Assembly: GCF_021129235.1 (NCBI RefSeq)
Contig: NZ_JAJOMA010000006.1
Coordinates: 135,580 to 199,579, forward strand
Reading direction: 5' to 3'
Origin: Kineosporia mesophila
GTDB taxonomy: Bacteria; Actinomycetota; Actinomycetes; Actinomycetales; Kineosporiaceae
DNA length: 64,000 nt
The notes beneath the pieces are model-generated. The model ran no database searches. It was not told the DNA's origin and worked only from the letters and a program-made list of their open reading frames with translations. This document shows, one piece after another, positions 10,990 to 40,618 of this stretch; within the stretch, counting starts at the first letter, position 1, and the number at the start of each line of letters is the position of its first letter. Made by a program: the position numbers and the translations under genes.

Positions 10990-11008
10990 GGGGTGTTTCC
11001 CTTCGGGC

Positions 11009-14420: not shown

Positions 14421-14428
14421 CCCTCTTG

Positions 14429-14497: not shown

Positions 14498-14735
14498 GAA
14501 AGGTTGGGGCGGGGGTCCTCGATGGTCGGCTACAGCCAGGGCCAGAGCCACATCGCCCGGGCGGCATCGGCGCCCGTAGGCCCTCCTGCACCTGCATCTG
14601 TCCTGCTCACGACCCTATGCGCAGTGACCGGCGGGGCCGCCCAGTAGATGGCTGTTGCCAACGGTTACAGCCCCGATTCCAGGCGAGGGCGTCCACTGCG
14701 CGCAGGACCGACCCAAAAACGAGACGAGAGCTTTC

Positions 14736-14775
14736 ACCAGTGGAGTGGCCGCCAACCTCCGGCCACTCCACTGGT
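14736..14775. terminator. Hairpin downstream of dnaA
   Basis: A perfect 15-bp stem (ACCAGTGGAGTGGCC and its complement) encloses a 10-nt loop. It lies 190 nt past the dnaA stop on the minus strand. It would block dnaA transcription from running into the oriC core. Confidence 0.6.
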
Positions 14776-14900
14776 CACCTCGGAAAAAACTGCCCTATAA
14801 GCAATTTCAGAGAGTCTGGCGAGAAGCCGCGATCCCGAGCGCTACGCCTCTGACCCACGCAGAAGCGCAGGGCTGGGATGATCCGGTTGGGAGCTGTTTA

Positions 14901-14950
14901 TCGTCCACAATTCTGAAAACAAACAGCCAGTGGACAACACCTGTGGATTA
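14901..14950. promoter_or_regulatory. DnaA-box-like sites next to dnaA 3' end
   Basis: TCGTCCACA 14901-14909, AGTGGACAA 14929-14937 and TGTGGATTA 14942-14950 are each one or two bases from TTGTCCACA/TTATCCACA on one strand or the other. They flank the oriC side of dnaA. Confidence 0.6.
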
Positions 14951-14965
14951 TTGAGAAACCGCAGG

Positions 14966-21270: not shown

Positions 21271-21276
21271 GACTTC

Positions 21277-22035
21277 GTGCCTGTCGAACCTACTGAGGAA
21301 GAGGCAGCAGCGGCCCGGACAGTGTTCGGGCCGCGACTCGACCTCGCACATGCATATGCCCAGGCTCTCGCCACTGTTGGCGTCGAGCGTGGGCTCATCG
21401 GCCCCCGTGAGGCCGAACGGATCTGGGAACGTCACCTTCTCAACTGCGCCGTGCTCCAGGAGCTCGCGCCCGACGACGCCGAGCTCGGCGACGTGGGCAG
21501 CGGCGCAGGTCTTCCTGGCATCCCGGTGGCTATCGCCCGTCCCGATCTCAGCGTCTACCTGATCGAGCCGATGCTCCGCCGCACCACGTGGCTGCGGGAG
21601 ATCATCACTGAGCTGGGCCTGACCAACGTCGAGATCATCCGGGCCAAGGCTCACATTGTGGCCGAGTCGGGGCAGCACTTCGACGTCGTCACATCACGCG
21701 CCGTCGCCGCCCTGCCCACTCTCGCCGAGTGGTCCATGCCCCTCGTTCGCAAGGATGGCCAGCTGTTGGCCATCAAGGGCGACACCGCAGAGGACGAGCT
21801 AGCCGCCGCCGGCGAGACCCTCACCGCTCTGGGGGCTGCGTCGGCTGAGGTAGTGCGCTGTGGTGAGTCCGTTTTGGGGACGCCCACCACGGCAGTGCGG
21901 ATCGTTGCCGGCCGCACCGGCAAGGTTTCCAAGAAAAAGAAGAGCAGCCCGAGCCCGTCGGCCGGAGCTTCGAGTAAGAAGAAGTCACCGCCTCCCCGAG
22001 GCGGTAACCGATCTGACGCAGGACGCCGAAGGTAG
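21277..22035 (+). CDS. rsmG: 16S rRNA (guanine527-N7)-methyltransferase RsmG (GidB)
   Basis: RsmG (252 aa) methylates N7 of G527 of 16S rRNA using SAM; loss gives low-level streptomycin resistance. The start is a GTG at 21277, 6 nt after khpB. The SAM-binding loop GDVGSGAGLPGIP is at about 71-83, followed by the conserved VTSRAVAALP and KDGQLLAIKG motifs. The last roughly 35 residues form a Lys/Ser-rich tail. In most relatives parA follows directly; here a 15 kb gene-free stretch intervenes. Confidence 0.96.
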   Translation: MPVEPTEEEAAAARTVFGPRLDLAHAYAQALATVGVERGLIGPREAERIWERHLLNCAVLQELAPDDAELGDVGSGAGLPGIPVAIARPDLSVYLIEPMLRRTTWLREIITELGLTNVEIIRAKAHIVAESGQHFDVVTSRAVAALPTLAEWSMPLVRKDGQLLAIKGDTAEDELAAAGETLTALGAASAEVVRCGESVLGTPTTAVRIVAGRTGKVSKKKKSSPSPSAGASSKKKSPPPRGGNRSDAGRRR

Positions 22036-22060
22036 TCGGCGGATAACTGATCGACTGGTG

Positions 22061-22098
22061 GGGTTCGGATGGACCGAGAGGTTCACCCGAACCCTTTC
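22061..22098. terminator. rsmG terminator
   Basis: GGGTTCGG (22061-22068) pairs with CCGAACCC (22087-22094), followed by TTTC. It lies 25 nt after the rsmG stop. Confidence 0.55.
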
Positions 22099-22303
22099 CT
22101 GTTCGGTCTCAGCGCCGGTGCTGCACCGCGGTGCTCTGCGAGTGGGACTCTGGCTCTCATCTGGTTGAGTTCTGTCCGGGGTCGGCGCTGACCGCCTGAT
22201 TCGGCGCTAGCTCTCCTGACGCCATCAGCGCTGCGTCGCGATTCCGTCACTTCATGTCGCGGCCTGTAGCTACGTTCTGTCATCGCGATCACGGTTCTCC
22301 CTT

Positions 22304-22349
22304 GCCATCCACAGCTATCCACCTCCCCTGTGTATAGACCTGTGGATAA
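22304..22349. promoter_or_regulatory. DnaA-box-like group after rsmG
   Basis: GCCATCCACA (22304-22313), CTATCCACC (22316-22324) and the perfect box TGTGGATAA (22341-22349, inverse TTATCCACA) lie within 46 bp. Confidence 0.5.
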
Positions 22350-23461
22350 CTGCTGCGTGAGGTGAATTTTCCGGGCGTCCCGTCTTGGCCCCGAGCATCG
22401 CCGTGAAGGGCTTCGTCCCTCTCGTACGTGGTTTTGACCTGCAGCTTCACTTGGCTGGACCGGTCAGGCCCAACTGCCTGCGATCCGCCTGCGGTGCCCT
22501 CGCCATCTCTGGACAGCACTGTGGAAAAACTCGCGTCCACAGTGCTGCGAGCCGGTTCGAACAGATGTCTTGACCAAGCGTCCGGGGTTGTCGGCGTGAT
22601 CACGGTGCGAGAGCAAACGTCGAGCTGGCCGGGGAAGGCAAAAGCTTGGCGTTGTGGTTCTGGGCAGCGGCCGAAGGCACGTGGGGGATCAGCCGAGCTG
22701 GTTGAGCTGCGGTTCGGGTCGTACTCCTGGCTGCCGAAATGCTGTTAGACCGTTTTGCTGGGTGATCAATTTGCAGCTCTGCAGGGACATGGAGCCGGCT
22801 ATCTGGCTCAGCCATAGACGTGCCAGCTGTCCGTGGCATCCCGGTGGCTGAAGATCTCCATGGCAGTGCCACCTGCCATCTCCAGGTCAGTCTGGGCTTA
22901 TGGCAGCGCGGCCTTCCCGAAATGCTGCGGACGCCGGGGAGCACGCCACTTAGGTGGCCACCTCCCATGACTTGCGTCTGGCGTTGCGGGCTGATGGGTC
23001 GGCTAGATGGCTCGTGGCAACGGCGTGACCTAGGCACACAGGCTGTCCGGTCGTCATTGCTTGTCATTCGCTGGTGGCGGCAGCAGCCGACGCCGCGTGC
23101 CGGGATCATCAGACACTTTGCTCGATCTGGCCGAAGCGGGGTGGTCAGGTGCCCTGTACGCGGCGGCTGTTGGAGCCAGATCGGGTGGCACTTGGCGACG
23201 TGAGAGTCAGCGTGATTTCACCGACCCCATCATCGTGCAGAGAGCTGAGCAATTGGAGCGCCCACTGGAAGTCCATTCCTGCTGAGAGGTATCCGGTGGC
23301 CGCACTGAGCGTGGCCCGTCGTAACGGCGATGTCCTACTAGGGCCAATCCTGGCCTCCCTTAGACGGTCACCGGGCACTCCCTCGCATACGGCGGCGATT
23401 TCCAAGCATGCCCGAGTGCGGTGGTCACGAATGATCGCGGCCGCCCTCCGCTCTCTTGCTC

Positions 23462-23502
23462 GTGATCATACGAACCTTCCCGTGGACGGTTCGCATGATC
23501 GC
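23462..23502. repeat. REP-like inverted repeat, copy C (short)
   Basis: GTGATCATACGAACC (23462-23476) and GGTTCGCATGATCGC (23488-23502) are inverted repeats with two mismatches. The outer bases match the ends of copies A and B. Confidence 0.55.
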
Positions 23503-24403
23503 GAACAAGAAGATGGCCAATGCTTAGTCGTTTGGCACTGCAGTAGTAGGAGCAAGGGCTGTGAAGGGGAAGTAGTCTCACGGCCTGGCGAGGCTGGGCG
23601 GCGGATGCCTGCTGGCCGACCGAGGCTGCATTAGTGCGGTGTGAGCTATCGGTCCGCAGGACATGTAGAGACCAAATTCGGGGCGATAGCTGCTTTCTGA
23701 ACTTGGCCGCTCGTTCATCTGTGATTAGGCGGGCAGACACGAACGACCGTGGCTATCCATCGCGTGCTTAGGTCGCTCTGCCGCCTCGCCGGTGGAACTC
23801 TTACTCAACGGGCTTTTCATACTTCTGGCTAGTTCCTAATGGTTCGATGCTTTTAAGAGCCAAGTTGTCGTCGGACCAGGTGCGGCTTCGCCCGGCGCCG
23901 GCCGGGTGGCTTCCGGTGGTCGGATCTCGATCAGTCGTTCAGACCTTGAGCGGGAACCAAGCATTCCATGGGCCCGGTAGAAGAGCATCCGACCTGGAGA
24001 TTGGAGCGTGGCGCAGCTGCCGAGGGGTGCGTAGGTCAGAAGTACACGTCCCTGGATGGTCCTCGCGGCAGCCCGGACGCCTCTCGTTCAGCCGTCGACT
24101 GATGGGCGCTTCTCTATGAGCGTGTGCCGTAGATCCGATTACCTGTGGCGCTGACCGTTGCCATGCCTCGCCCCGGATCTCGCCGAGCGCTCATTGTGTG
24201 GTGGCCGGCAGAGGCGTGAAGCCGTCTCCTGGAAGCCACACAAAGGGCTCTCAGCGGCTTGGCCGACCGAGATGGATCTACAGGTGGTGTCAAAGATTTG
24301 GTCCGCCACAAATGAACCTAGAGCTTTGGGCGGACGAAGCCGCCCCGCTGATCGAGAGGTCCGTCAGCATGCTCCTTTGAGGGCCAAGGCTGCGCCAACC
24401 ACC

Positions 24404-24419
24404 TGTTTCACGTGAATCA
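24404..24419. promoter_or_regulatory. parS: parS-like site 1
   Basis: TGTTTCACGTGAATCA matches the bacterial parS consensus TGTTTCACGTGAAACA at 15 of 16 positions. It is expected to be bound by the ParB encoded at 39491. Confidence 0.85.
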
Positions 24420-25477
24420 GCGACGCCCAGACCGCCGATCCACAGGGGCCCATCAGCTCAGACCAATAGAACAGCGGAAGGGCGCTCAAGGCGCAGGTGG
24501 CAGATCTGGAGCTCACCGACTCGGCCGTGCGCCGCGGGCACAGTGATGTACTCACCGAGAAGCATGTCCGCTGCATCTCCCAGAGCAACCTCCACCGACG
24601 GGTGGACGATCGACGTCCGCGAGATCCCTCTGCCGAGCCCGTAGTAGACAGGTGCTGGTGCGACCGACCCAAATCCATCCCGAAGAGAGCTGCCGGCCAA
24701 AGGCTGCGATGACAGTCCGAATGTCGCTGTCGCCACCGAGGTAGCGACGTTCACCCGACGAGGTCGGCGATCGTTGAGGTGAAGTCACCTCGCCCTACAT
24801 TGATCGTGAGATCCAAGTCGGCCTGGATCAGGACTAGGTATGGGCGCAAAACAAGCGTCACTTGCACTCAACCCCGAATAGGGAGGGGAGTCTGGTCCGA
24901 ACAGCTGTGCCGCCGTGTCGAGGTCACACCCGCGATAAGGGACCAGGGCAAGCTCGCGATTGCAGTTGGCCCGCTCTGGGATGGCCAGAGGCCAGATGAT
25001 GTTCTCGGCACGGGCCGGTTTTCCGGAGGCTCGTGCGGGGCAGTTCCCCCACGAACCAAACGCGCGGACGATGAGCGGTGGCGAACCCAGCCTCCACTGT
25101 GATGCGCAGCCAACTGACGGTCACGTCCGGGCCGCCCGGTTCCACCAAGGCGACGACTATCTCCCCATTCGCTGTCGCTCGGCAGCAGGGTCTCAGGCTT
25201 TTAGCCACCTCACTTTACCGGGAACGGTGATGGCGATCTGATTGGTCAGATCGATCGTGGTTGCGTCAGATCGGCGTGCTGACTGACCGTTGGACCTCGG
25301 ACGGTTGCGATCATGTCGACCCTGCCCACTTGACTGTGGTTCACGATCTTGTGCTCAGGCACGTCACTCGTCACCATGCCGGCCAATCCGAGTGCCAGCC
25401 TGTTGCTTCCATCTTTGGTTTCATCGGCGCGCGATTCCTTCTCCGCAAATCACTTTCGCCAGCTGAGACCGCAAGCA

Positions 25478-25493
25478 TGTTTCACGTGAATCG
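25478..25493. promoter_or_regulatory. parS: parS-like site 2
   Basis: TGTTTCACGTGAATCG, 14 of 16 to consensus, with the same A-to-T change as site 1. Confidence 0.8.
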
Positions 25494-25985
25494 AGGGCGC
25501 CTTTGGCCACCCCCCATGGCTTCCATTCGGAAGCCAGTGCTCATTGGGTGATCTCACTGTGGACTCCAGGCACATGGATGAGACCAATTACGAGAGGTGG
25601 GAAGTGCCCATCGATGTGGACTGCTCCCGCCGCACAGAAGCTACGTAGTGAACATGGCGCATCCGGCACTCTCATAGGGAACGGCACTGCGGTGCCACAG
25701 GGCCAACTAGCTCGTCTAGGCCGAGGGCACATTGCCATCGCTGCGATGGTGAACAAAGAATCATTCGGCTCAGCTAGCTAATGCTTACCGAGTCCTAGTG
25801 ATGGCCAGCTACGTGGAAGTCACCAGCTCATGGTTGAACCTGTTAAGGCGGCACGACAGCCCGGTGTCCGCGCTTTCGTGCCCAGAAGCTCCTGAAGATC
25901 TAGCTAACTTTGACCCCCCAGTCCCTTGGACGCAGATAGGTACGCGCATCACCTACCTCGCACGGGGTAAGGGTGCTCCCATCTC

Positions 25986-26078
25986 CGTGCCGTGCCGTGC
26001 CGTGCCGTGCCGTGCCGTGCCGTGCCGTGCCGTGCCGTGCCGTGCCGTGCCGTGCCGTGCCGTGCCGTGCCGTGCCGT
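25986..26078. repeat. CGTGC pentanucleotide array, about 18 copies
   Basis: Eighteen exact tandem copies of CGTGC followed by a partial unit. It lies between parS-like sites 2 and 3. Frames through it spell simple 5-residue repeats and are not genes. Such arrays vary in copy number by slippage. Confidence 0.95.
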
Positions 26079-26339
26079 AGCGACATTGACAGATTCCGGC
26101 GAAGCATCCAGCTGCTTGTGCAAGGGCGGGAATGAGAGGAGTTTATTGGCGCGCGAGGGGGTATGGACGACTCGACAAGGGCTCAGATGGGGTGCTGCTA
26201 CCTCAGCTAATCTGCCTTCTTCGTTGCCGGCCTTGACTTCCCTACTTCCATCTGCGGCCGTCATGCACTGGTTTCGTTGGGCTCACGCCGCGTTCAGAAG
26301 GAGGATGAGCGCACCTCCGACGTTGATTGGGCCCGTCAA

Positions 26340-26355
26340 AGTTTCACGTGAAACG
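26340..26355. promoter_or_regulatory. parS: parS-like site 3
   Basis: AGTTTCACGTGAAACG, 14 of 16; the inner 14 bases match consensus exactly. Confidence 0.85.
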
Positions 26356-26955
26356 CCTTCGACCAAGAGCTTCAGCGGCTGGGCCTAGCCGGCCACTCGC
26401 ATCCCCTTGGCCCCGCCCGACCAGATCAATACGGGCCGGGCATCAAGACATGCTTTTGCACCTCGAAGCGCCATCATCACTAGGTCTCCATGAGGTGATG
26501 AATGACGCCTCGCCGTGGTTGACCGGATGCCAGCGGAGGCTGTGAATACAGCCTCACGAGTCGCTCTCTAAAGGTCAGTCATCGCTTGGTCAGGCTCCCA
26601 ATGCGGCTACCTCAACCCCGAGGTATTTGCCTCCGAGCAGGCAAGAACCATCGGCGGCCAAGGTGTATACCTACCTACAACTATTCTTCGCCGGTCTAAT
26701 CCTATGGCGGAAGCCGGAGTCCGCTCCGTCAAGCCTCTCGCTGCCAAGTACAGGAGCTGCAAGCTTCATGGTCGTCTTGGCTACCCACCGCACCCCTAGC
26801 ATTCTGACGTCGCGTTGATCAGCGCGACCCAGGCGCCGCTTAAGGATGCAGAGCAGTGCTCTTGGCAGAGCCTGACCGCGCTGACTCGACGAAGCCATCG
26901 CCCAGTCGCCGTGGTCAGGCTGGCTGGCCTTTGTGGCTGTTTTTGGCCCCGGGCT

Positions 26956-26971
26956 TGATTCACGTGAAACG
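26956..26971. promoter_or_regulatory. parS: parS-like site 4
   Basis: TGATTCACGTGAAACG, 14 of 16. Confidence 0.8.
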
Positions 26972-28522
26972 GTCGGTGGGGTGACCGTCCTTTAGCATGC
27001 GGCCGACGGCCTGTCCCTAGAGGCGCTTCATCGACCAAGTGGATTCTCGTACTGTGTTGAGGCATCGAGGACGCCCTTGTTGGGGATATACCGCGGGACT
27101 CAGCAATCGTGAGCACCACTCAACAGGCGACTGTCGCTGCGGCTAGGTCCAAAAGAAGATCGATTCCCGCTGATCCAGCGCGGTGCTCGAACGTCGTGTC
27201 TTCCGCAAGCCTCCACAGCCTGAGCAGGGACTCCACAAAGACTCAAGACCATCGGAGCTGGGCCCATCGACAAAATGAGTACGCCGGTGCGCCCAGTCCT
27301 CATTGGCTCATCGGAACGCCAATGTCGATCTGCAGTGGCCCAGCCAATGACCGCGCCGGTGGTGTTGCCAGCCCGAGCTGTCCATCTTCGCCACGGCTCG
27401 GGGCAGCAGTGGTTCGGCGGTATCCAGCTGTCCCCAAAACAAATCTGCCGAGGGTGCGCCGCACCTAAGAGCCAGCTGGGACAAGGTGCCTCGTTGCTAT
27501 GCCCATATCGCGATCAGTCTTGGACAATTGGACCTGGGCCCTGTTGGGGAAGTCGCTGCCGTAGCGAGGGGCGTCCGGTGGTTGTCTTGGGGGGTACCGA
27601 GTGGTGGTCCTTGAAGCGGTAGTTCTATGTGGGCTCCACTCGGTGCCGCTAAACAGCCCCCGAGTGGCCCCGCAGCATGACTTGCAAAAAATGCCCCAGA
27701 ACAAACGATGGCTTCAGATACTGGCCATCGCTCGGATGGGCCTACTGACATCCAAATACGCTTGGACACCGGGTGGAGCTGGCTGATGTGAAACTCACTA
27801 AGAGCCTGCGAGGTCGCCAGTTTGGAGTGCCCGTTCTGCGGCGCGGCACGGCACGGCGTGGGAGTAATGCGACGGCACTACGGTCCGATCAACCGCGGAT
27901 CTGTCAGGCCACTCGATACTTCTACTCATGAACATTCGTCGTTGCAGTCTGGAAGTAGCTAGGCCGGCGAGGCTTGGATCCGCACGCCTAGCCACTGGTC
28001 TTCATGCTTGCCCGGGGCTCGCCCAGACTGGCGCTTGGATTGCGATGCTTTCCGGCTGTCTAATGCCACTGACGCCCTATGGGCGCGGACGCCAGCCAGG
28101 TTCGCTCGAGGTCGGATAGCTGCTAGACGTGGGAATCCACAGACTCATCCACGCCCTGTGGGTAAAGCAGCCAGAGCTGCGGCCCTGGATGGGGAGGCCG
28201 ACTACGGAGTGGCGGCCGCATGCCTCAGCTGACGGACCACAAGTCACTTGTCGAAATCTATTTCCTGGACGCCGTGGTACCAGCCAGCGAACGTTGTCGA
28301 GCAGTCTCCGATCCCCTTGTGCGGCGCGATGGATGTGAAACAACCACAGCAGTCAGACACCCAGCTCATGCTGGCCTCGGTCGGCGCCGTTTCACCCAGT
28401 TGAGCAGCTTCGTTGCTGGCTCTCGAGAGCTCAGCTGTTGGCCGGTTGTCCCCAGGTTTCTCCACAGCCATGGTGAGGCCAAACCGCAGGTCAAGCGACT
28501 GTGACCACAAAACTTCACAGCG

Positions 28523-28888
28523 CTATCCACAGGCGGAAAAGCGTGCACAGTCTGCTGCGATGAGTCCTCGCTTGGCCGTCGGCGACGTAAGAGCTCGTCC
28601 TTCGACCCAGTGCCGATTCTCGTACGCCAAGGCGCAACGGGGGTCTATCCACAGGGCGATGACCCTGTAGCCCAGGAGCCAGACATGCTCCTTCCAAAGG
28701 GATACGACTCACGCCGGCGTTCGTCCACAGTGTGGATGGGTCTGTGGAAAAGCATCCATAGCCACTGGTCGCAGTGAAGTAAGAATCTGAGTTTCAGCCG
28801 GCTCCATGTTGAAGTCAGACGCGGATCGTCCAGCCGTAAAGCTCATGCCGCGAACGGGAGATTGCGGCCCGGCCGCGCGTTATCCACA
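28523..28888. promoter_or_regulatory. DnaA-box-like cluster in the gene-free region
   Basis: CTATCCACA (28523-28531), CTATCCACA (28645-28653), TCGTCCACA (28721-28729), TGTGGATGG (28731-28739), TGTGGAAAA (28743-28751) and a perfect TTATCCACA (28880-28888) lie within 370 bp. Weaker ones occur from 28130. This is about 14 kb from oriC and could bind or titrate DnaA. Confidence 0.5.
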
Positions 28889-29448
28889 GGACGGGGGAGC
28901 CGCGTCGGCTCTTAGTTCGTAGAACCCGATGGAACTTAGAGAGACGCCTAAGGCGACAAGTCCACAGGCGGAGACTTTTGGTCGGTGCTAGTCGCCCTGC
29001 GGCCCACGGCAACCAAGCCCATCGGACAACAGGCAACGGGCATATGGATTACGTCAGAGTCAGGAACTGCTGACAGAGCTTTCACTCGTGGTCCCAAGTG
29101 TCGCCTCCTGCTTGGGTCCTGATCGCGGAATCCTATGAGGGCCCAAGGCGGAGCTCGCGCGATTCGCCCGTGACAGGCGAGGGATGCGCACAACAGACTG
29201 TCCTCGCCTAAGTGATTCATGGCCGAAACGATCATGGGCCTGGCCTGGAACTGGATGTGGCCTGAAGCCGAACCGGAGCAGTACCGGGGGAGTTGAAGCC
29301 GTGTCAGCTGAATTCTCGCCGGGCATAGCTCTTACTCAAGAGATTGCCATGTCGGTGCGTGGAGCTTCCGGCCCTCAACAGGGCGACGCTGCGTTGCTCT
29401 TTAGGTGTTGGCCACTTGGGCCTTGGTTGCGATGAGCTGCCAACCCAC

Positions 29449-29464
29449 TGTTCCACGTGAAACA
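29449..29464. promoter_or_regulatory. parS: parS-like site 5
   Basis: TGTTCCACGTGAAACA, 15 of 16 to consensus. Confidence 0.87.
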
Positions 29465-30390
29465 CAGACGATGACTGCTGGGGTGACGTCCTGTGCCAAC
29501 CCAGTAAGACACGGCACTCTTCGCGCGTCAGAAGACGGGCGCTGCACTGCAGATCCGTTTCCCCTCCACCCGTCACGGTTGGCGAGCAGCAGATCCGTCA
29601 GTAACGGAAAGTTCTCCGCGCGCATGGTCGCAAAATGTTCGCACGTCCAGCAGGGGCAGCAATGATGAGTGGAGGGGTGCCCAAGGCCATCGGTCTTGGT
29701 CAAGGCTTCAGCGAGGGTGGAGCCGGATAGGGCATTGCGGACGGGTCTCGAAGAGACGCTCTCCGCATTGATGCGATCCTCTTGCACGCGCTGCGTCTTG
29801 ACTAGGCTCCGTCGACTGAAAATCAGCCCAGGCGTTTCGGAACTAGCTGGTCCAAATCCCGGGCTACGGAAATCAGGTTAATCGTTGATGTCGGTGTTCC
29901 CAGCAAAGCGTCGAGCATATGGATTTACAGCGGAGGTTGTTGCCCGTCGAATGAGGGCTGTGAGCCAACTTCTTCGGAGCACGTCCCTCAGCAAGTCAAG
30001 CCAACTTCTCCAGATCAGCTGCACCGACATGTCGACAGCAGGGTCGCAACGCGTATAGGTATGGTTCGTTCGCTGAGTAGGGTCGGGCTGCCTGGCCAGA
30101 GGTCGACATTCCATCAGCGTCAGGATCAGGGCTCGGCAAGGGGCTGGTAGGTGTCGACCACGGTAGAAGTAGCTCTTGTCTTGGATGCTGAAAGATTGCT
30201 GGTTGAGACGTACTCGCTGCTGCATGGATCCTCCTCGTGGAGGAGCCGTTCCGTAAAGGGTGATGGAGGAGAGAACCGCCATCGTGTTGCCTAAGGGGGT
30301 GTGTCTGGTGACGACGCATCACATCTACCCGCGTGGCGTTTGGTCGGTGGTAAGGCGTTCCGGAGGGTCGCCCTTGGCTTGGAGAAGCTC

Positions 30391-30406
30391 CGTTTCACGT
30401 GGAACA
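30391..30406. promoter_or_regulatory. parS: parS-like site 6
   Basis: CGTTTCACGTGGAACA, 14 of 16. Identical to the site at 36851. Confidence 0.82.
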
Positions 30407-31621
30407 AGGGCCCACGCTGTGAGTGGTCTCGTACTCGCGTGGTCGCCGCAAGGGATGGTGAGCCGCGCTGGGGTCAGTAATCGGACGAGACGATGGGTGG
30501 GCAAGCTCGGCAGTGGCCCGGCGAAGACTCGTGAAACGCGTATCCAGATGAGCGGCGAGAGATTGCCATGGCCAGCTGGTGATGTCATGAGAAGCGATTG
30601 GCGGCCGAGAGGATTTCGAGCGGCGGCAGCGCCCTTCCCGTGGATACGGTTCGCCGGCCTTCGAGGCCTGGGTTCGACATCAATTGGCAGCTTGGGCGAA
30701 GCGCGGCATGCCCGTCATTCAGCGCCAGCCACCTTGGACTTTTGGCCACCACTGATGCGGCACGATGAATCTGTCATGGACACAGACCCAGGTGATTGGA
30801 CAGATCACTCTTGCCATGTGCAACCCAGGCTGGTGGACATATCGCTCGGATTGAACGGAAAGACAAGATCTACGTTAGGTATGGCAGCAAGCTGCATCTG
30901 GCATGGCAGGGTCGGCGGATCGTCAGCCAGGCTCATAGCAATGCCAAGTGCCAGTGAGCCGTCCGTTATTCGTCGGCCCACCGGTGTCGAGGGAGCGGTC
31001 GGACCACATCCGCTAGGGCAGGTTGCATGGCGGAACCTAGAAGTTTTGAACGGCAGCCGTTGGTCCGAAAGCGCTAGGGCTGCGGATACATCCGGCAGTG
31101 GAGCGGATGGGATGACAACCGCTATCCAATCTCCTTCGCCAGGTCAAAGTTTTCATAGGTGAAGCGCGACATCGGTAGGCCCTGAGAGCGGTAGGGGGCC
31201 GGTCAGTATGACGCTCCCGAAGACTTCTCCCTCAACGACAAGAGGCGCGGTACGCGTGGTCTTCAACTCGGTGCCTACGTCATCCTTCTTGGTCAGCTGC
31301 CATGTCCTTGGGGAAATTTCGCGGGCACACGGCCGTGTCAACCAGTGGCTCAGGACATCCTCGACGAGGACTACACCAAGCAAGACTCCGCAGAGAACAT
31401 TTTCCTAAAACATGCTCGCTGCCTGTTTCCAACGGCCCCCAGTACTCGGCCGTTCTTCCAAGCTTGGCATCGAGGGGCCGCTCGGACAGGGAGCCCCTCC
31501 GACTCATTGGCGCTGAACCCCACACGTTATGTGTGCCCGCCAATATTGAGTGCCGCAAAAACCAAGAATCGCTTCCAGATAGTCTCGGACGACCGCCCTA
31601 CCGTCCGTGGCGCATTGACTG

Positions 31622-31637
31622 TGTTTCACGGGAAACC
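31622..31637. promoter_or_regulatory. parS: parS-like site 7 (CACGGG core)
   Basis: TGTTTCACGGGAAACC, 14 of 16, with the central CACGTG changed to CACGGG. Confidence 0.65.
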
Positions 31638-32490
31638 ATCTCTGGCTTCCCTCACCGACCGAGCTGCAAGCCTGCCTCATCGATGGATTCCAGTCCTGCC
31701 GGCAGGTGCCGTTGCCGGGGAGTCAACGGATGGGTGGGTTGAGGAGGCCATTTGTGGGTTGGCACCGGGCCAACGATCAGTAACTGCGTCTGCAGACCTT
31801 GATTGTCGTGTTAGTGCTTTGCCTAGAGCCGCTCTCCTTCGTCCTTCCGAACAGGGGCGCGATTGCCACACACTCCGCAGGCCATGTCTACGCCTCGTTG
31901 GAGGCCCCTTGGCTATGGGCGGAGACATCCACAGCTCCACCCACACCTGTGGATGACCGTGCGAACAAGAAGCGGCCCTAACTCAAGGTCTGTGCCAAGG
32001 AGACTTCTACTGGCTGACCTGCTATTTGCGGATCGCCTTCCCAGGTTGTCGTCTCGATGGCGAAAGGACGTGCACACCCTCCGCTGAGATCTCCACTCAC
32101 CAAAGGAGTCGATCTTCGGCGTCAGCCACAGGCGCTGAGTCCGCAATTCAAGGAATCATGGGTCACCGGCCAGCTACCGCTCGCCCAGTCAATGGCGCTA
32201 GCTGTGCCATGCACTCCTACCGATGCGGGGTCTCAGAGTCATCTGTCAGGTGCTGTCGATGGGGTGCCTTTAGCTATATGGCATCAGGCGAACCTGCGCG
32301 ATGGGTGCTGTTGGGAGGGCTGGCGCTCACCGGGGATCAGCTCAGTGGGGCGCGTCGGAGCCAGGGGCATTGAGAGTCTGGCCGGATCATATTTGCAGTT
32401 CGATCCGGTAAGACCTCACGGAGCTTGAGACGATCACCTGCTCCAATCCCCGCAAGACGTTCGGCTACTCTGCTCTGCCAAGGCCATGAA

Positions 32491-32506
32491 TGTTTCACGG
32501 GAAACA
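32491..32506. promoter_or_regulatory. parS: parS-like site 8 (CACGGG core)
   Basis: TGTTTCACGGGAAACA, 15 of 16; only the central T is changed to G. Confidence 0.7.
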
Positions 32507-32541
32507 AGATTCCCGACATCAATCGGCGGCTCAGGGAGACT

Positions 32542-32557
32542 GGGTTCCCGTGAAACG
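32542..32557. promoter_or_regulatory. Degenerate parS-like site 9
   Basis: GGGTTCCCGTGAAACG, 12 of 16, 35 bp after site 8. The core CCCGTG is the complement of the CACGGG variant. Confidence 0.45.
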
Positions 32558-35500
32558 CCGAGTTCCTGCGCGACGCCTCTGCGGGATGAAATGGCAGCCG
32601 GCTGCTCTCGACGGTCTGCTCTGAAGGATGGGTTCAACAGGCCACCCAGAGCTAGATACCGGCGGCGGATCTCTGGAACGCGAAGACACCCGAACCATCC
32701 AGGGAGCAGCCACCGCATCGTCGCTGTCCTCACGACTTCGCCAAGTGTCCTGGCGGGTGGGCCGGTCGGCAGCCGACCGCCTCGGTCGGCAAAGATTCAA
32801 CGGACGACTGAGCTAGGTCTAGGGAAGGTCTTTGAGAACCCTAGGGTCCGCTCAGGTTGGGCACGCCTATGAACGGCGAGCAATGTTGCGCCGATCGTGC
32901 TCCAGACGATGGACTTCCCTCAGCGCCATGACGGTCGGCTCATCTCATCTCGACTGAACTTCACAGGTCTCAGCGCCGGTAAGTGAGGTGTTCATCGTCA
33001 GTGGCTGTTGGTGAAACTACGCCAAGTCTAAAGAGGTACGGCAGATCGACGCGACTGTGCCACGACCCTGGTGCTGGCAGGTGCATCCAGGTGGACTCGC
33101 TCTCGATCTGACGAATACTCAATGCCTACTGCTGTGCGTGGTGGAGCCAGCACGGCAATCCGGATAACGGTGCCGGAAGCGTTCTCTGATGCCAGCAATG
33201 TCGCGGCGCGAGCCGTCGGGGTTCCGTTGAGATAGTGGGCGACCACGCGACCCTCGCCCTCAAGCCGGTAGATCCTGGACGGCAGTCTGCTCGGCCAGAT
33301 AGCTGCGAGATCTGGAGGGCTGCCCTGCGGCGAAGCGGCGCAGGGCGAGGATGGGTCATAGAGCTGGAGCCTGGCTCTCCATGATTTCAACAGCACGGTC
33401 GTTGCGATGTCAGACGGGATCGAAGTAGGTGGAGGCCTTCGGATGCTGACGGCCGAGGAAATGGCTCATCACGTGGAACACGGTCGCGTCGATTTTCCTC
33501 AGCGCTTAGTCCGATCGAATGGCGCCGCATCCCATGATTGGCCTCGTACATGATGAGCGTCGAGTCGGGGCGGCGAATCCACCATTCAGCAAGACCGAGC
33601 GAAGAGCCTCTCTGCGGATTTTCAGCCAGGTGATGTTCTGAGAATTGCCACAACCCACAGAAGCTTCGACCATCTCCGACCGACGAGATCCCCGGAGGTA
33701 CTGGCGAGGGCCAGACGTGCCCGATTGATGTGACCCGCTGGTGGGCTCTGGAAGGACAGAGGAGATCTGTCCAACGCGGCCGGCGCACCCCCTGCCATCC
33801 CTCGTGGGCCGTTTCGGGAAGTGGCTGGCCGTGTGCCACGGTGTCAAAACTCATGCCGAGTGGGCAACGGGCCGTGAGAAATTCGTGGGTCGTTTAGCCG
33901 AAACCAATGGCCAAATTCGGCGGCGCGATGCAGCACCGAACGTTGAGTCCAGGCCGTGCCGAACCACCTCTCCTGAAGCGATCGCTCCGTCTAACCGTCT
34001 GAGGATTCGAAGCGAAGGAGTGGCAGATCTTGTGGCGAGAATCGGCAGGGCTCTTGAATCGGAGGATGGTGGCCCGGTGGCAATTGGCGGACGGGGAACT
34101 GTCAGCACGCGACTGACCTAACTGCGTTCGCCCAGCCGGCCATCATTTCAGGAGCAATATGACCGCAGGGCCATCTAGCCAAATCGAATGCGAACCTCTG
34201 GCAGTTGGCTGTGTCCGTTCTGGTCGGCCAAGTTGTGGGTGACTGAGCCAGTGTCTACGAGTCAATGGCTGCCAGATCGGGAGCCCGCCAATCCAAAAAC
34301 TGCCAGCGGCGATCTGGCTAGGTCAACGAGTAGACCGCCAGTGGTTGGTTAGGTGGCAGAACTGGCTTGCCGCTGTCCTGATTTTGGTTTCCAAGATCCA
34401 CGTTCGTGGCCGTGGTTGAGCGCATAGGCGCGAATCTGGCCGCTGACACCAGGATGCCTCAAGACATGTCGGGAGCCATGCTCAACGCTGGGATCCCGGT
34501 TGCCGTTCGGCTGAGTCCGGTTGTGGTCTCGAGGTTGAACATCCCAGCGAAGGAACCTGCCGGCCGAGGGCAGACAACCAACACCGGGGCGATGTCCCGT
34601 TCGGCGCGTCTTCGAGTCACGTCCTGGCGAAAGCGCGTCGTTGTCAGAGCGACCCAAGCACAGGAATGTTCGTGGGCCGCTCGCGCGTGAGCAGGCACCC
34701 GTCCGGGGCAGATCCTGTCGTTGAGGGCTTCTTACCACTGCTTCTCACATCGAGCTCGACGCCCCTATGAGGGTTTCGATGGCCACTACCTTCTCTATTG
34801 ATCCGCACTGATCGGACCGTGGCCGGTCTGCTTCTATCGGCTCTCTTCGGATGGCAATCTCGATCCGCGTCGAAGGATCCGGACGTCCATCGGCTCGACG
34901 CCAAGGTTCAACCGATACGTATGACCTGCGACGGTAGCGCTGCAGAAACAGGGAGGCAGATGAGGGCCTGCGCTGAGAGATCCTCAAGGGGGATTCTTCG
35001 GCTGGGCCAGACCGAACGGAGCGTCTTAGTTCAGGACTGAAGGAGTGTGAAGACGCCACGGGCTGGTGGTGTGTGTTCGTCGATTGGCTGGAAGGCACAT
35101 CAGGACTCATGGCAATGCATTGATTGGTGTCACCCAAATCCGTCGGAGTCTTCCAGACCGGGCTCCAAGCGGTTGATACCGGCGGTCAGTGGGGAAGCCG
35201 TTGTGCGATCAACATTGACGATGAGTCAATGAGGTCAACCACCCGAGGCCCGCGTACTTGGGGGTGGGAACCAAGTCCATGGGCGTGCCCCGGTGATTAG
35301 TTGCTGTGAGGTAGGGAAGACCGGGGGACTAACTGGGATGTGTCCCGACGCGATCCCGAAGAACACCGGACCGCACACCGCCGCGTCAGATGCGTTCCGC
35401 TGGGGAGGGAGCCATCGAAGTCTGCGCTCGATCAAGTCCGTGACGTTCATCCTGGCGTTGGTTTCGGGGCTAATGGTGAAGCGTTAATAGAGCAGGGCAA

Positions 35501-35802
35501 GAGGCGGTCGTGAAGTCCAGCTTGGGTACCGGAAACCACTTGGTGAGTAGTGGGGCTGCGAAGGTCTTGCTTGAGACGCCGCAGAGCTGTGAGGACCTGC
35601 CCGCTACATCTCGGCGGTTGTTGGCCGGCCAATGCGAGCCCGTCTGGGGCGGTGCAAGTCCACACGGTGCTTGGGGATGGGATCGGGTTCACGACGTCAT
35701 GTTGGGGCGCCGGGCCATGAGATCAGTTCACGAAGCGGAACGGGTCGGGTGGAAGGTCGGTCAGCGCCTGCGGTGATCGCAGAGATCGGCACCTTCTCGT
35801 TC

Positions 35803-35873
35803 GTGATCAGGCGAGCTCCCCTGTCTTCAGCCGGGAGACGCCCTCACCTTCCGGGGAAGGTTTGCATGATCAC
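35803..35873. repeat. REP-like inverted-repeat element, copy B
   Basis: Starts GTGATCAGGCGA and ends TTTGCATGATCAC. It is 71 bp long (copy A is 69 bp) and shares an exact 24-bp right end (35851-35874) with copy A at 14475-14498. Confidence 0.65.
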
Positions 35874-35924
35874 GCCCAACGGAGCGAAGTGTGTCTAGGC
35901 CACTGCAACGGAGACTGGATGATG

Positions 35925-36100
35925 GTCCGGGAGTCCGGGAGTCCGGGAGTCCGGGAGTCCGGGAGTCCGGGAGTCCGGGAGTCCGGGAGTCCGGGAGTCC
36001 GGGAGTCCGGGTGTGCGGGTGTGCGGGTGTGCGGGTGTGCGGGTGTGCGGGTGTGCGGGTGTGCGGGTGTGCGGGTGTGCGGGTGTGCGGGTGTGCGGGT
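35925..36100. repeat. Compound 8-bp tandem repeat
   Basis: Ten copies of GTCCGGGA (35925-36004), one transitional GTCCGGGT (36005-36012) and eleven copies of GTGCGGGT (36013-36100). Because the unit is 8 bp, all six frames stay open and spell 8-residue repeats; these are not proteins. Confidence 0.95.
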
Positions 36101-36850
36101 GTTTAGATATCCAGGAGTCCAATGGTTCAGAAGGGGTCAGGCTTGTTGGCCTGGCCTCGGGGATAGGCGACAGCCAGAGACCGAGGCCGACTGGTGGTGT
36201 TGCTGGGGGATAAGGAGAGGGACTGTTTTCACGGTCCAATCCTGGGCGAAGTCGGTTCGGAATATCGGGCGGCAGCCGGCCCGGGGACAACCCCTTCGCA
36301 GCGAATCGCCAATTGAGAGGTGCGGCCGAAGGGACACGGGCTGGCGAGAGCACCCGACGAGATTGGGCTACGCCCGCTCGCTGGTCGCCCAGTGCCGGCT
36401 GGTCATCGGGTGTCATCCGTCGATCTTCACCGAGGAACTGGTGAGCTCCTGACCGGATGTGAGGACAACCCGATCATGATTCGGAAAGTGACTCAACGCG
36501 CACTCGTTGCGCCTGACCGTTCGGGTGGCGAGAGCGCGCGTTACGGGTGCAAGTGCCCGTCGAACGCCGCTTTGAAAATCTGTGACACCACGCCGGTAGA
36601 CATAGGCGATCGATCACCTATGAGGTTGAGGTGGCTCTAGGGGCCTGGCTTATCAGTCGGAGAAGGCGGCTCGAGGGCGGGCCGACGTCGGCGCGCGGAC
36701 AGACCCCATTCCCTAGGCGCTGCATCAGTCACGCATTTAGAGGGACGGCCGGAATTGGTCTGATTGATGTTGGCGGACCGGTTCCGGATGGACGCGTTCC
36801 GCTACGCAGTCCGCGCCTCCCGTAGCGGCGTCATGGTGAGGTCATCTCGT

Positions 36851-36866
36851 CGTTTCACGTGGAACA
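36851..36866. promoter_or_regulatory. parS: parS-like site 10
   Basis: CGTTTCACGTGGAACA, 14 of 16, identical in sequence to site 6. Confidence 0.82.
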
Positions 36867-37070
36867 ACGAGCCCGACGCGTCGAGGCGTAGTTCCGCGGG
36901 TCAATCGCCACAGCGGCCGGAGGATTGTGCCATCACATTCACCACCTGACCGGTGACTCGCAGTACATCGGGTCTTGCATCATAGGTAGTGTGATGTCGG
37001 CATGGTTGACTGAAGCCATCTCGGGGAAAGAACGTGGTGGTGGCTCGGCGCACATCGCTCATCACTGGCC

Positions 37071-37079
37071 TGTGGACAA
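37071..37079. promoter_or_regulatory. DnaA box upstream of parA
   Basis: TGTGGACAA is a perfect inverse TTGTCCACA, 176 bp upstream of parA. TTTTCCACA and CTGTGGATG motifs follow within 135 bp. It may link parAB expression to DnaA, as inference. Confidence 0.5.
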
Positions 37080-37254
37080 TGTGGGGATCCCCAGGTGTGG
37101 ATGACTGCGGTGGATGACGCGGATGGCGTCCTCACCAGCTCTGATGGGCTCGATCAGCGGGCATCCACTAGCGAGGAAGTTTTCCACAGCCGGGAAAACC
37201 TGTGGATGAGCGCACCTAGACGGGTCGAACGCGAGATGATGGCGGAGCTGGACA

Positions 37255-39210
37255 ATGGAAGGGACGTTGGTGAGCGAATTGGGCTGGCCCTCGGCAGCAC
37301 TCAAGCGAATGGCCAATGGTCTTGGTTGGCCTAAGAGCGACCACAAGTTGGTTTCCCGTGAAACATCGCCCCGCAAACCTGAGTCCGACCCTGAGCCCGC
37401 AGCCAAGCGCGCCACTGTCTTCGCACGAGCGGCCGGCTCTGAAACACAGCCCGCAGTCGAAGTGACCTCTACGACGGAACAGTCGGTCGACGTTCCGCGA
37501 ACTGGACGGCACGCGGCGCCGACCCCGGTCGTGCAGCCCTCAGTGGTAGCCCAGCCCTCAGCATCGCCTCAGCTTCAAACACCGCCTCACCCACTGACTG
37601 CTGCTCCTTCGGGAAAGGCCGACCGGGACGATGACGGGCTGGCTTCGGTTCCGCCGGTTGACCAAGGGCCGGCGCCTGAGCCATCGATCGACCCTGACCA
37701 GCGCCCGGCTCAGCGCTCCGACACTGTGGTAGATCTGCGCGATGCAGTGGTCGGCCTGCGTGACGACGACATTCCGCCCGCTCCGGTAGATCGCTTCACC
37801 ACCGGGGGAGGAGTGTTCGCCGTGGAGAGATACGATCGTGGCGATGCACCTTTGAGGATTCCGGGCCGGCCGATCGCGACGCCTGACATTGAAGAGATCG
37901 TCGCGGCGTACGCGAGCCGGGCGGCTCTTGGCGAGAATGGCACTTTGATCGACATGGACCGGGCCGAGCGACACGGAAGCGCTCCGGCCAATGATCACCA
38001 GCACGTCGGCGCCGACAACGGTGCCAGCCGGACCGGGGCACGAGCCCTGAGTTCCCCCACATCATCTCCAGAGGTTCGGATGTCATCGAGCAACGAGCCC
38101 AGCAATGCGGACACTGAGGCCGGATACTCGGTTTCTGTCACCCGTCCCTGGCTGGGAGTGGAGCTGGGAACTGAACCGACTCCGGGATTCCGGCAGCCGG
38201 TCCAGCGTCCTGCGGAAGCCCGAGAGACTGGCGCAATGACCGCACCGCCGGCGACAGGAAGTCAGCCGCTGGTCGAATCGATCTCGCTGATCGACGACAC
38301 CCCGCTCGCGCTGGAGGTCGCTGAAGACACACGCCGCCGCATCGCGCTGGCCGGGCGTCGTTTCCCGCGTCCGAAGGAGACACGGGTGCTGACCGTGTCG
38401 AATCAGAAGGGCGGCGTCGGTAAGACGACGACGACGGTCAACCTGGCGGCGGCTCTCGCCCAGGCCGGCCTGCGGGTGCTGGTGCTCGACAACGACCCGC
38501 AGGGCAACGCGTCCACAGCGCTGGGCATCGACCATCACGCCGAGGTGCCGAGCATCTACGACGTGCTGGTCGAGGGCCTGCCGCTGAAAGATGTCGTGCA
38601 AAAGTGCCCGGACGTCGAGAACCTCTGGTGCGCACCGGCGACCATCGACCTGGCCGGTGCCGAGATCGAGCTGGTCTCGCTGGTGGCTCGTGAATCGCGG
38701 CTTCAGCGGGCGGTGGCCACCTACCTTGAGGAGCAGGAGGCCGGCCCGGGGCGTCTCGACTACATCCTCATCGACTGCCCACCGAGCCTGGGGCTGCTGA
38801 CGGTCAACGCGTTCGTCGCGGCGCAGGAGGTGCTGATCCCGATCCAGTGCGAGTACTACGCGCTGGAGGGCTTGTCCCAGCTGCTGAAGAACGTGGACCT
38901 GATCAAGGGGCACCTCAACCCCCGGCTTCACGTCTCCACGATTCTTCTGACCATGTACGACGGGCGTACCCGCCTGTCGTCGCAGGTTGCCGACGAGGTT
39001 CGGGCACACTTCACCACCGAGGTGCTGAAGACAACGGTTCCGCGGTCGGTCCGGATCTCCGAGGCCCCGAGCCACGGGCAGACGGTCATGACCTACGACC
39101 CAGCCTCGAGCGGCGCGCTCTCCTACCTGGAGGCCGCCCGTGAACTGGCAGAGCAGGTCCTTGACGACAATGAGCGCGAGCAGCGACAGGCCCACGCAAA
39201 CCGCACGTGA
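37255..39210 (+). CDS. parA: Chromosome partition ATPase ParA with long N-terminal extension
   Basis: ParA (651 aa from ATG 37255; a GTG at 37270 after GGAAGGG is an equally good start) is a deviant-Walker ATPase that moves ParB-parS complexes over the nucleoid. The catalytic domain begins near residue 375: KGGVGKTTTT at 385-394, the DNDPQGNAS loop near 413, Walker B YILIDCPP at 503-510, and the C-terminal EAPSHGQTV motif. Residues 1 to about 375 are Pro/Ala/Asp-rich and probably disordered, much longer than usual. The parS-like site at 37350 lies inside the gene and encodes VSRET, a motif also present near the N-terminus of some actinobacterial ParA proteins. parB follows after 280 bp. Confidence 0.95.
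   Translation: MEGTLVSELGWPSAALKRMANGLGWPKSDHKLVSRETSPRKPESDPEPAAKRATVFARAAGSETQPAVEVTSTTEQSVDVPRTGRHAAPTPVVQPSVVAQPSASPQLQTPPHPLTAAPSGKADRDDDGLASVPPVDQGPAPEPSIDPDQRPAQRSDTVVDLRDAVVGLRDDDIPPAPVDRFTTGGGVFAVERYDRGDAPLRIPGRPIATPDIEEIVAAYASRAALGENGTLIDMDRAERHGSAPANDHQHVGADNGASRTGARALSSPTSSPEVRMSSSNEPSNADTEAGYSVSVTRPWLGVELGTEPTPGFRQPVQRPAEARETGAMTAPPATGSQPLVESISLIDDTPLALEVAEDTRRRIALAGRRFPRPKETRVLTVSNQKGGVGKTTTTVNLAAALAQAGLRVLVLDNDPQGNASTALGIDHHAEVPSIYDVLVEGLPLKDVVQKCPDVENLWCAPATIDLAGAEIELVSLVARESRLQRAVATYLEEQEAGPGRLDYILIDCPPSLGLLTVNAFVAAQEVLIPIQCEYYALEGLSQLLKNVDLIKGHLNPRLHVSTILLTMYDGRTRLSSQVADEVRAHFTTEVLKTTVPRSVRISEAPSHGQTVMTYDPASSGALSYLEAARELAEQVLDDNEREQRQAHANRT
37350..37365. promoter_or_regulatory. 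parS: parS-like site 11 inside parA (CCCGTG core)
   Basis: GGTTTCCCGTGAAACA, 14 of 16. It lies in codons about 32-37 of parA (LVSRET). A degenerate right half-site (GCACGTGAAACG) overlaps the parA stop near 39203-39214. Confidence 0.7.
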
Positions 39211-39490: not shown

Positions 39491-40618
39491 GTGAGCGATA
39501 AGCGTAGAGGCTTGGGGCGAGGCCTCGGAGCGCTGATCCCGCCGCCTCCGGCCGCCCGTCCTGCTGGCGACAGCCCGGTGGACAGTGCTTTCTTCAGTGA
39601 GCGTCAGGACGGCGAGAGCCCGGCTGACTCGGCGAAGGTGAAGACCCCGGCCCCGGTCAAGGAGCCGGCGGCCAAGGCCACGCCGGAGACGACGGACACC
39701 AAGGTCGACCTGGAGACGAAGAAGCCGGCCGAGCCCGAAGCGCCGAAGGGCCCCGAGCTGGTCCAGGTGCCGGGTGCCTACTTCACCGAACTTCCGGTCG
39801 GCACCATCGGGCCGAACCCCCGCCAGCCGCGGACGGTGTTCGACGAAGAGGCGATGGACGAACTGGTGCACTCGATCAAAGAGATCGGTGTTCTCCAGCC
39901 CATCGTCGTGCGAGCGGTGCCCGGCACCGACGCCGACGGCAAAGAGATCTCGTACCAGCTCATCATGGGCGAGCGCCGGTGGCGGGCGAGTCAGAAGGCC
40001 GGGCTCGAAACGGTTCCGGCCATCGTCCGCGACACCAACGACGACGACCTGCTGCGCGACGCCCTGCTCGAGAACCTGCACCGCAGTGAACTGAACCCGC
40101 TGGAAGAGGCCGCGGCCTACCAGCAGTTGCTCGACGACTTCGGTTGCACGCACGAGGTTCTGGCCACGCGGATCGGCCGGTCCCGGCCGCAGATCAGCAA
40201 CACGATCCGGCTTCTTCGTCTGCCGTCCAAGGTGCAGAAGCGAGTCGCGGCCGGCGTGCTCTCGGCCGGGCACGCTCGTGCGCTGCTGGGTCTCGAAGAC
40301 TCCGAAGCCATGGACAAACTCGCGACGCGCATCGTTGAAGAAGGGCTCTCCGTCCGATCCACGGAAGAGGTCGTCAAGCTCACCGATCCGAGCGAGACCA
40401 AGTCCAAGCCGCGCAACAAGCCGAAGGCCGGAGGCAAGAACGTCGAACTCGACGATCTGGCGAGCCGCCTGGCCGACCTGCTCGACACTCGTGTCAACAT
40501 CGCGCTCGGGCTGACCAAGGGCAAGCTGAGCGTCGATTTCGCCAGCGTCGAAGACCTCAACCGGATCCTCGACATCCTCACTCCGGAGCTGCGTAAGGCG
40601 TTCCAGAACGGGCAGTAG
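39491..40618 (+). CDS. parB: Chromosome partition protein ParB
   Basis: ParB (375 aa) is a CTP-dependent clamp that loads at parS and spreads along DNA. The GTG start at 39491 has AGGAG upstream and gives the classic opening [16 protein letters not shown], the ParA-interacting tip. After a Pro/Lys-rich linker (about 20-95), the ParB/Srx CTP-binding domain carries GERRWRA at 160-166 and [10 protein letters not shown] at 184-193. A helix-turn-helix that reads parS is at about 212-230 ([14 protein letters not shown]). The C-terminal dimerisation domain is about 315-375. All key motifs are intact, so the nearby parS-like sites have a cognate reader. Confidence 0.97.

Follow-up and report, generated by a model that had tools for sequence, protein, structure and literature searches.

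Why should a bacterium keep more than 15 kb of DNA without a recognisable gene directly beside the genes that partition its chromosome? The question is raised by a 64,000-nucleotide stretch from Kineosporia mesophila (the window), which lies around the origin of a 7.8-Mb actinobacterial chromosome (genome G000, contig C56) and carries, in order, gyrA, gyrB, recF, dnaN, dnaA, rnpA, yidC, jag, rsmG, the block in question, parA, and parB. An earlier note on this DNA had remarked that no credible gene lies between rsmG, which ends at 22035, and parA, which starts at 37255; coding and domain scans of the block came out empty, in agreement with that remark.

The block is likely to be the ParABS centromere of the chromosome, enlarged in Kineosporia into a long gene-free platform to which ParB would bind. 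Its role as a putative centromere-like region of ParB loading is well supported, since the position, number, order, and types of the parS sites are kept among five Kineosporia while the intervening DNA is not. To that extent, the dedicated loading platform proposed in the earlier note stands; coverage of the block by ParB and selection on its length and emptiness are parts of the proposal that we infer. What is new is not the number of parS sites but that close relatives have kept both the sites and a long, nearly gene-free interval while losing almost all similarity in the spacers. Among the papers listed by full-text searches, whose scope leaves out most subscription journals, no title or opening of an abstract described such a block.

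The parS array and its retention in Kineosporia

Ten parS sites (at most three mismatches in 16 bp) occur in the window, all between 24404 and 37365, compared with a mean of 0.09 and a maximum of two in 100 shuffled sequences. Nine lie inside the block and the tenth within the 5′ end of parA (Table 1). Three sites carry one mismatch and seven carry two, so the earlier count of about ten sites matching at 14 to 15 of 16 positions was accurate. If no more than one mismatch is allowed in the 14-bp core, the entire genome has 12 sites, 10 of them at this locus. The adjoining parA and parB are linked and both encode canonical domains, as in a ParABS system.

The array is retained at the same place in all five Kineosporia whose locus is unbroken, with 8–11 parS each at the same threshold of three mismatches in 16. 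Under the stricter core threshold, these five species together have 59 sites genome-wide, of which 49 belong to the block or the 5′ part of parA (10 of 12 in both G000 and its nearest relative G005, 11 of 14 in G003, 10 of 11 in G002, and 8 of 10 in G001). The sixth species, G004, was kept out of this tally: its locus is split over contigs, and its eight sites comprise three on the parA contig and five on contig C49, whose position is unplaced.

Among the 49 sites, 43 have exactly one core mismatch and six have none. Sites with two core mismatches number two against 0.2 expected. The mismatch types, folded on the palindrome, are T2A (16 sites), T4C (16), A6C (9), and others (2). Should ParB accept each of three substitutions in one half, six single-mismatch sequences would exist for each perfect one, which is near the observed 43:6, and imperfect parS would thus need no special function. 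In Pseudomonas aeruginosa, most ParB peaks are reported near the half-sites GTTTCAC and GTTCCAC, as here (PMC10419367). The order of types along the block is also conserved, pairwise common subsequences summing to 71 against 55.5 for shuffled orders, with none of 20000 order shuffles as high.

A parS-like sequence, GTTGCACGTGAAAC, recurs far from the block in four Kineosporia (G000:C56:356463, G005:C1:462606, G003:C1:2621451, and G001:C1:568965).

The distance from the rsmG stop codon to the first possible parA start is 15.2 kb in G000, 17.7 kb in G005, 16.7 kb in G003, 16.0 kb in G001, and 9.6 kb in G002; the split locus of G004 gives no gap length. G003 is a single 8.07-Mb contig carrying the same gap, and an assembly artefact, which the earlier note had counted among the ways its reading might fail, is therefore rejected. 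Among 148 genomes sampled from the class, 135 have rsmG and parB on one contig, at a median distance of 1243 bp, and only two exceed 5 kb: G000 (17459 bp) and G189 (12627 bp). In other genera of the family, five of seven genomes have both genes on one contig, with 2.8–6.1 kb between rsmG and the ParA ATPase domain; 28 of the 33 parS-like sites near the locus in these five fall in the rsmG–ParA interval. A separate sample of 58 relatives includes one genome, G041, in which rsmG and the ParA domain are about 6 kb apart, with called genes in between.

Loss and replacement of spacer DNA

Between G000 and G005, flanking alignments are 91%–93% identical, and seven flanking genes show 0.12–0.30 synonymous substitutions per synonymous site (dS) and a fourfold-site difference of 0.09–0.19. 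Short intergenic regions (6.7 kb within 224 kb) are 90% identical with 88% coverage, and the interval of the replication origin, oriC, reaches 87% identity over 1.26 kb. The 224 kb compared include 39 other long stretches that lack a called gene, and 33 of these are covered to at least 0.66. By comparison, alignment extends to only 14% of the spacer core, with 66% identity and 7 of 15 pieces inverted, whereas a reversed control yielded none; the G005 block contains 75 N. Each of the ten spacer intervals was compared with four shuffles: seven come within about 25 points of the best shuffle, and the first, ninth, and tenth clearly exceed it.

What aligns best consists of the first 580 bp, the last 330–350 bp, and a 96-bp island of DnaA boxes (96% identical, inverted), along with an 8-bp microsatellite, repetitive extragenic palindromic (REP)-like elements, and a few weak collinear pieces. 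The microsatellite is kept at a matching place although most of the DNA around it cannot be aligned. The blocks are thus homologous and collinear but near saturation. A sensitive all-against-all search of twelve blocks from the family gave 54 matches, compared with 5 when subjects were reversed.

The spacers also take up material from outside the block. All three blocks searched against their own genomes (G000, G003, and G005) hold short decayed copies of DNA from elsewhere: those of G000 are listed in Table 1, the G003 block has the beginning of a histidine kinase gene, the edge of a hydrolase gene, part of a transposase gene, and one further piece, and the G005 block has a beta-ketoacyl synthase piece and two further pieces. 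A DDE_3 transposase remnant lies in the G005 block and an IS4/5-type frame in that of G002. Such recognisable mobile and gene remnants are what a decayed mobile island would contain; patchy presence is not observed, however, and a recent mobile island is rejected because the long block occurs in every unbroken Kineosporia locus (five of five). Tandem duplication was likewise rejected as the origin of the spacers, no such family being present among the 20 largest of 28 direct repeat families.

Both the microsatellites and the REP-like elements mentioned in the earlier note are present (Table 1). The latter are not special to the block: the hairpin family around TCGTGATCATGCGAACC has 200 pattern matches in G000 on both strands (at most two mismatches), and the elements were rejected as a block-specific feature.

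Expanded arrays in other lineages

G189, from another family of the same order, has 17 parS-like sites in its rsmG–parA interval (locus L139, C5:528000-546000), 12 of which lie at 8116–11333, spaced 242–373 bp apart. Tandem Repeats Finder identified a 287-bp repeat at 9666–10719 (3.6 copies, 78% match) in which each unit has one parS, four in all; looser copies reach over about 8.5–11.1 kb, so that the array is satellite-like. The interval also contains called genes, one of which has a DUF6226 domain. In G057 (L142, 2595–5681), 13 parS-like sites, mostly of the GTTTCACGTGGAAC type, extend over 3.1 kb between parA and rsmG; the gap there is gene-free, measures about 3.4 kb, and has no tandem repeat bearing parS. 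G168 has five parS, of which a gene-free gap of 2.4 kb contains two, parA another two, and rsmG the last. The arrays of G189, G057, and G168 suggest that expansion at this junction arose more than once, or that an ancestral array was elaborated differently.

ParA itself has an N-terminal extension (window 37255–38360), and in genus g5 (loci L081 = G009 and L082 = G012) several parS lie inside the open frame of that extension.

A proposed gene-free track for ParB

Judging from the known behaviour of the ParB family, ParB would load at the roughly ten parS sites as a clamp dependent on cytidine triphosphate (CTP) and slide along spacer DNA that offers few protein or RNA polymerase obstacles. The outcome would be one large partition complex and SMC-loading zone, some 10–24 kb from oriC and adjoining its own parAB. 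Selection would keep the sites, and probably the length and emptiness of the tract, but not the sequence of the spacers, which would turn over through substitution, insertion and deletion (indels), local inversion, transposon insertion, and capture of short genome fragments. ParB is reported to redistribute over about 15 kb, similar to the length of the block, and its sliding is blocked by bound proteins (PMC9242446). In P. aeruginosa, mild overproduction of ParB silences most genes near the parS1–4 cluster, according to a review (PMC7022226). Blocked sliding and gene silencing would provide a reason for a gene-free track, but no proof of one.

A bolder version of this proposal, put forward tentatively as a possibility rather than a probability, is that of a regional centromere: tract length and emptiness would be selected since ParB clamps need an unobstructed track, sequence would turn over faster than in other shared intergenic DNA, and such tracts would have been built independently within the order, through sparse sites in unique DNA in Kineosporia and through a satellite-like repeat with one parS per unit elsewhere.

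Several observations weigh against a selected, empty track. ParB can bypass roadblocks, and its chromatin immunoprecipitation (ChIP) profiles change little near genes (PMC9242446), which weakens the need for gene-free DNA. Corynebacterium glutamicum manages with ten parS distributed across 35 kb, a single one of which is enough to maintain loading and the chromosome fold (PMC7083940). Spacing between parS is not conserved among Kineosporia species, and because these species share ancestry, the conserved order of types demonstrates retention of sites and not, by itself, selection. Emptiness is not absolute, given the shortest gap of 9.6 kb and the transposase frame and transposase remnant in the blocks of two relatives. 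Finally, 6 of the 39 other long stretches without gene calls align just as poorly (coverage at most 0.14); of the three that were inspected, one (7.6 kb) has long frames and two have longer or more periodic frames than the block.

The main competing explanation fits much of the data and is plausible, if somewhat short of likely. It holds that the spacers are useless, decaying DNA and that only the parS and DnaA sites matter: insertions would be harmless whereas deletions that remove parS would not, and the gap would have grown as a result. The spacers do behave as unconstrained DNA, captured fragments and transposase remnants do accumulate in them, and parS spacing drifts. Set against this, the gap measures 15–18 kb in four of five species, ten short sites are not obviously enough to hold so much DNA against deletion, and other genera of the family keep similar arrays within a few kilobases. 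The choice offered by the earlier note, either a platform or decayed DNA, breaks down: the spacers decay as if unconstrained, but the region as a whole has remained long and almost without genes.

Whether the spacers merely drift or are actively mutated is a related matter. The block may be a hypermutable zone, in which breaks caused by SMC/ParB loading or fork stalling, followed by error-prone repair, push spacer divergence above the neutral rate; this is unlikely, although three lines of evidence favour it. In a simple simulation that leaves out inversions, the observed spacer coverage corresponds to between about 0.4 and 0.7 substitutions per site across the indel rates assumed, above the fourfold-site difference of the flanking genes. 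The spacers contain inversions. In addition, one G000 fragment, a piece of an AMP-binding-enzyme gene, has an orthologous source in G005; over 160 comparable positions it has 14 states in common with the G000 source against one with that of G005, so that it was probably captured after the two lineages split. Since then, it has acquired 18 private changes against one in its source, which suggests that captured DNA decays fast, this being a single fragment with a partly constrained source. Fourfold sites in high-GC genomes are themselves constrained, however, and a rough correction puts the neutral rate at about double the rate at these sites, so that neutrality may account for some or all of the excess. 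The polarised fragments number one, and its source is partly coding. Since neither the constrained fourfold sites nor this single fragment allow hypermutation to be told apart from neutrality, it is kept as a rival only.

DnaA boxes within the block

The DnaA-box groups described in the earlier note are present: the G000 block contains 16 boxes (at most one mismatch) against 3.4 expected. Enrichment extends to all five Kineosporia blocks, with 16, 22, 21, 15, and 10 boxes against 3.4, 4.6, 3.5, 3.9, and 1.8 expected, whereas the corresponding interval in five other genomes of the family has 0–2. Three groups—after rsmG, in the middle, and before parA—occur in four of the five blocks; in G002, which has the shortest block, the middle group consists of two boxes. 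Word enrichment across the five blocks is highest for parS, DnaA boxes, and GCAGGTCAAA/TTTGACCTGC, followed by a few weaker words. The TTTGACCTGC motif lies in the left DnaA group of six species and is repeated in the central group, exactly in three species and with one base changed in G000; a further G000 copy lies among the DnaA boxes of the gyrB–recF interval.

The occurrence of TTTGACCTGC/GCAGGTCAA amid DnaA boxes near the Kineosporia origin (window 22433–22442, 28443–28537, and 8364–8373) is an observation in its own right, and the motif may be a replication-control element.

The groups at both edges and in the middle would tie the region to replication control, probably through binding or titration of DnaA. 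datA and DARS are clusters of DnaA boxes outside oriC, and the Kineosporia groups, clustered and conserved outside oriC, resemble them as predicted from sequence in pairing boxes with another conserved motif. They differ in that the boxes are placed within a parS array as well as at its two edges and that the partner motif is TTTGACCTGC. It is quite improbable, nonetheless, that the block is mainly a datA- or DARS-like region for titrating or reactivating DnaA, with the parS array as a bystander. The enrichment in five Kineosporia would fit, as would the fact that the best-conserved interior piece, aligned in four species, is the DnaA-box island; but parS is the strongest word signal in the blocks, other genera retain parS without DnaA boxes, and an ordinary oriC is present between dnaN and dnaA. 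For the block as a possible second replication origin, the pertinent observation is this same ordinary oriC.

Gene content of the block

In 600-bp windows, the periodicity of guanine–cytosine (GC) content reaches no more than 0.13 in the block, whereas a coding control averages 0.29, and the longest open frame, at 301 amino acids (aa), is within the 210–390 aa given by shuffled DNA. A Pfam scan of all 31 open reading frames (ORFs) of at least 100 aa wholly inside the block found none at the curated cut-off, the single match being at chance level (E 0.06, 13.7 bits, cut-off 27); NCBIfam and PHROGs gave no matches for the ten of the 31 that were scanned. At Rfam gathering thresholds nothing was found in the block, and one transfer RNA was found elsewhere in the window, so a known RNA is rejected. 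The Pfam and Rfam check suggested earlier thus leaves the gene-free reading standing. With tblastn, 257 open frames of the block gave 131 matches to the blocks of four relatives, confined to three places, namely the beginning of the block, the island of DnaA boxes, and the microsatellite. Promoter-like matches number 1 against 3.6 expected and terminator-like matches 9 against 9.6. Hidden genes or a long non-coding RNA, favoured only by the size of the block and its conserved first and last few hundred base pairs, are barely credible in view of the missing coding signal, the empty domain and Rfam scans, the three restricted tblastn locations, and promoter and terminator counts no higher than expected; hidden genes are accordingly rejected.

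A simple gene caller with a filter on third-position GC (GC3) overlooks genes such as rsmG and parA; the caller's "intergenic" 21271–39490 therefore contains both, and 500-bp rows of the block were used instead. In G004, a gene caller reports a frame of about 120 aa at the end of the block.

A second candidate block 78 kb to the right (G000:C56:213481-221110, L114/L115; 7.6 kb, low GC) was rejected as an equivalent: its long open frames and some coding periodicity give it the look of variable coding DNA, and it has no Rfam match. Mostly unaligned in the compared part of G005, it is probably a variable island.

Table 1. Features of the rsmG–parB region and its surroundings, in window coordinates.
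Feature	Position	Strand	Basis or remark
Ordinary oriC region between dnaN and dnaA, own DnaA boxes	12990..14965		77% covered, 86% identity in nearest relative G005
rsmG (gidB), left boundary of block	21277..22035	+	Pfam GidB 2.8e-51
Gene-free block, 15.2 kb, GC ~0.61, 9 parS and three DnaA-box groups, spacers unconserved between species	22036..37254		Scans and comparisons
Left DnaA-box group with TTTGACCTGC motif at 22433-22442	22341..22528		Aligned in six Kineosporia
REP-like hairpin, genome-wide family	23460..23513		Repeat comparison
Decayed fragment from rmuC gene edge, 62 bp, 87%	23879..23940	+	Self-genome search
parS 1, TGTTTCACGTGAATCA	24404..24419	+	Core type T2A
Decayed copy of AMP-binding-enzyme gene end (source beside thiolase gene elsewhere in genome), 163 bp, 86.5%	25004..25166	+	Self-genome search
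parS 2, TGTTTCACGTGAATCG	25478..25493	+	Core type T2A
(CCGTG)n microsatellite	25985..26078	+	Repeat scan
parS 3, AGTTTCACGTGAAACG	26340..26355	+	Core perfect
parS 4, TGATTCACGTGAAACG	26956..26971	+	Core type T2A
Central DnaA-box group	28157..28888		28443-28537 96% identical but inverted in nearest relative G005
parS 5, TGTTCCACGTGAAACA	29449..29464	+	Core type T4C
parS 6, CGTTTCACGTGGAACA	30391..30406	+	Core type T4C
parS 7, TGTTTCACGGGAAACC	31622..31637	+	Core type A6C
parS 8, TGTTTCACGGGAAACA	32491..32506	+	Core type A6C
Decayed purL-like fragment (AIRS domains), 114 bp, 87%	33167..33280	+	Self-genome search
Second REP-like element	35790..35887		Repeat comparison
8-bp microsatellite	35925..36102	+	Similar array in G005 block 16183-16335, about equally far from parA
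parS 9, CGTTTCACGTGGAACA	36851..36866	+	Core type T4C
Right DnaA-box group, directly ahead of parA	37071..37209		Box search
parA with long N-terminal extension, 651-aa ORF	37255..39210	+	Pfam AAA_31 5e-56, residues 377-559
parS 10, GGTTTCCCGTGAAACA, in parA 5′ end	37350..37365	+	Core type A6C
parB	39491..40618	+	Pfam ParB_N, HTH_ParB, ParB_C

Comparison with known centromeres and significance

Streptomyces has an actinobacterial ParB and the same parS consensus, with origin-proximal sites scattered among genes, in contrast to the gene-free block of Kineosporia. In Streptomyces coelicolor, 15 parS have been shown to bind ParB (PMC3899335). Myxococcus xanthus is reported to have 22 parS within a 3-kb stretch that lies some 4 kb upstream of parA (PMC3899335), or 24 in another report (PMC3778016); it resembles Kineosporia in having many parS in one cluster upstream of parAB near oriC, but that cluster is compact, whereas the ten Kineosporia sites extend over 13 kb of gene-free, fast-changing DNA. 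C. glutamicum, also an actinobacterium, likewise has ten parS in one region near the origin, nine of them intergenic, in a region lying 73 kb from oriC (PMC7083940). Unlike the Kineosporia block, that region includes coding sequence (PMC7083940), and it is not known to form a gene-free platform.

Accounts of bacterial centromeres usually feature short sites that lie between or within genes, whereas the array considered here occupies 10–18 kb of nearly empty, fast-changing DNA. The locus is thus a natural case that poses directly the question of whether ParB spreading requires an unobstructed track. It also provides a long, nearly unconstrained piece of DNA in a high-GC genome, from which processes of mutation and DNA capture can be read. 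Eukaryotic regional centromeres are long and gene-poor, and keep their position while their sequence changes fast. The Kineosporia block would work in a similar manner without homology, its sites being sequence-specific parS and not epigenetic, and in its presumed cellular use it would parallel, in a bacterium, the rapidly evolving centromeres of plants and animals.

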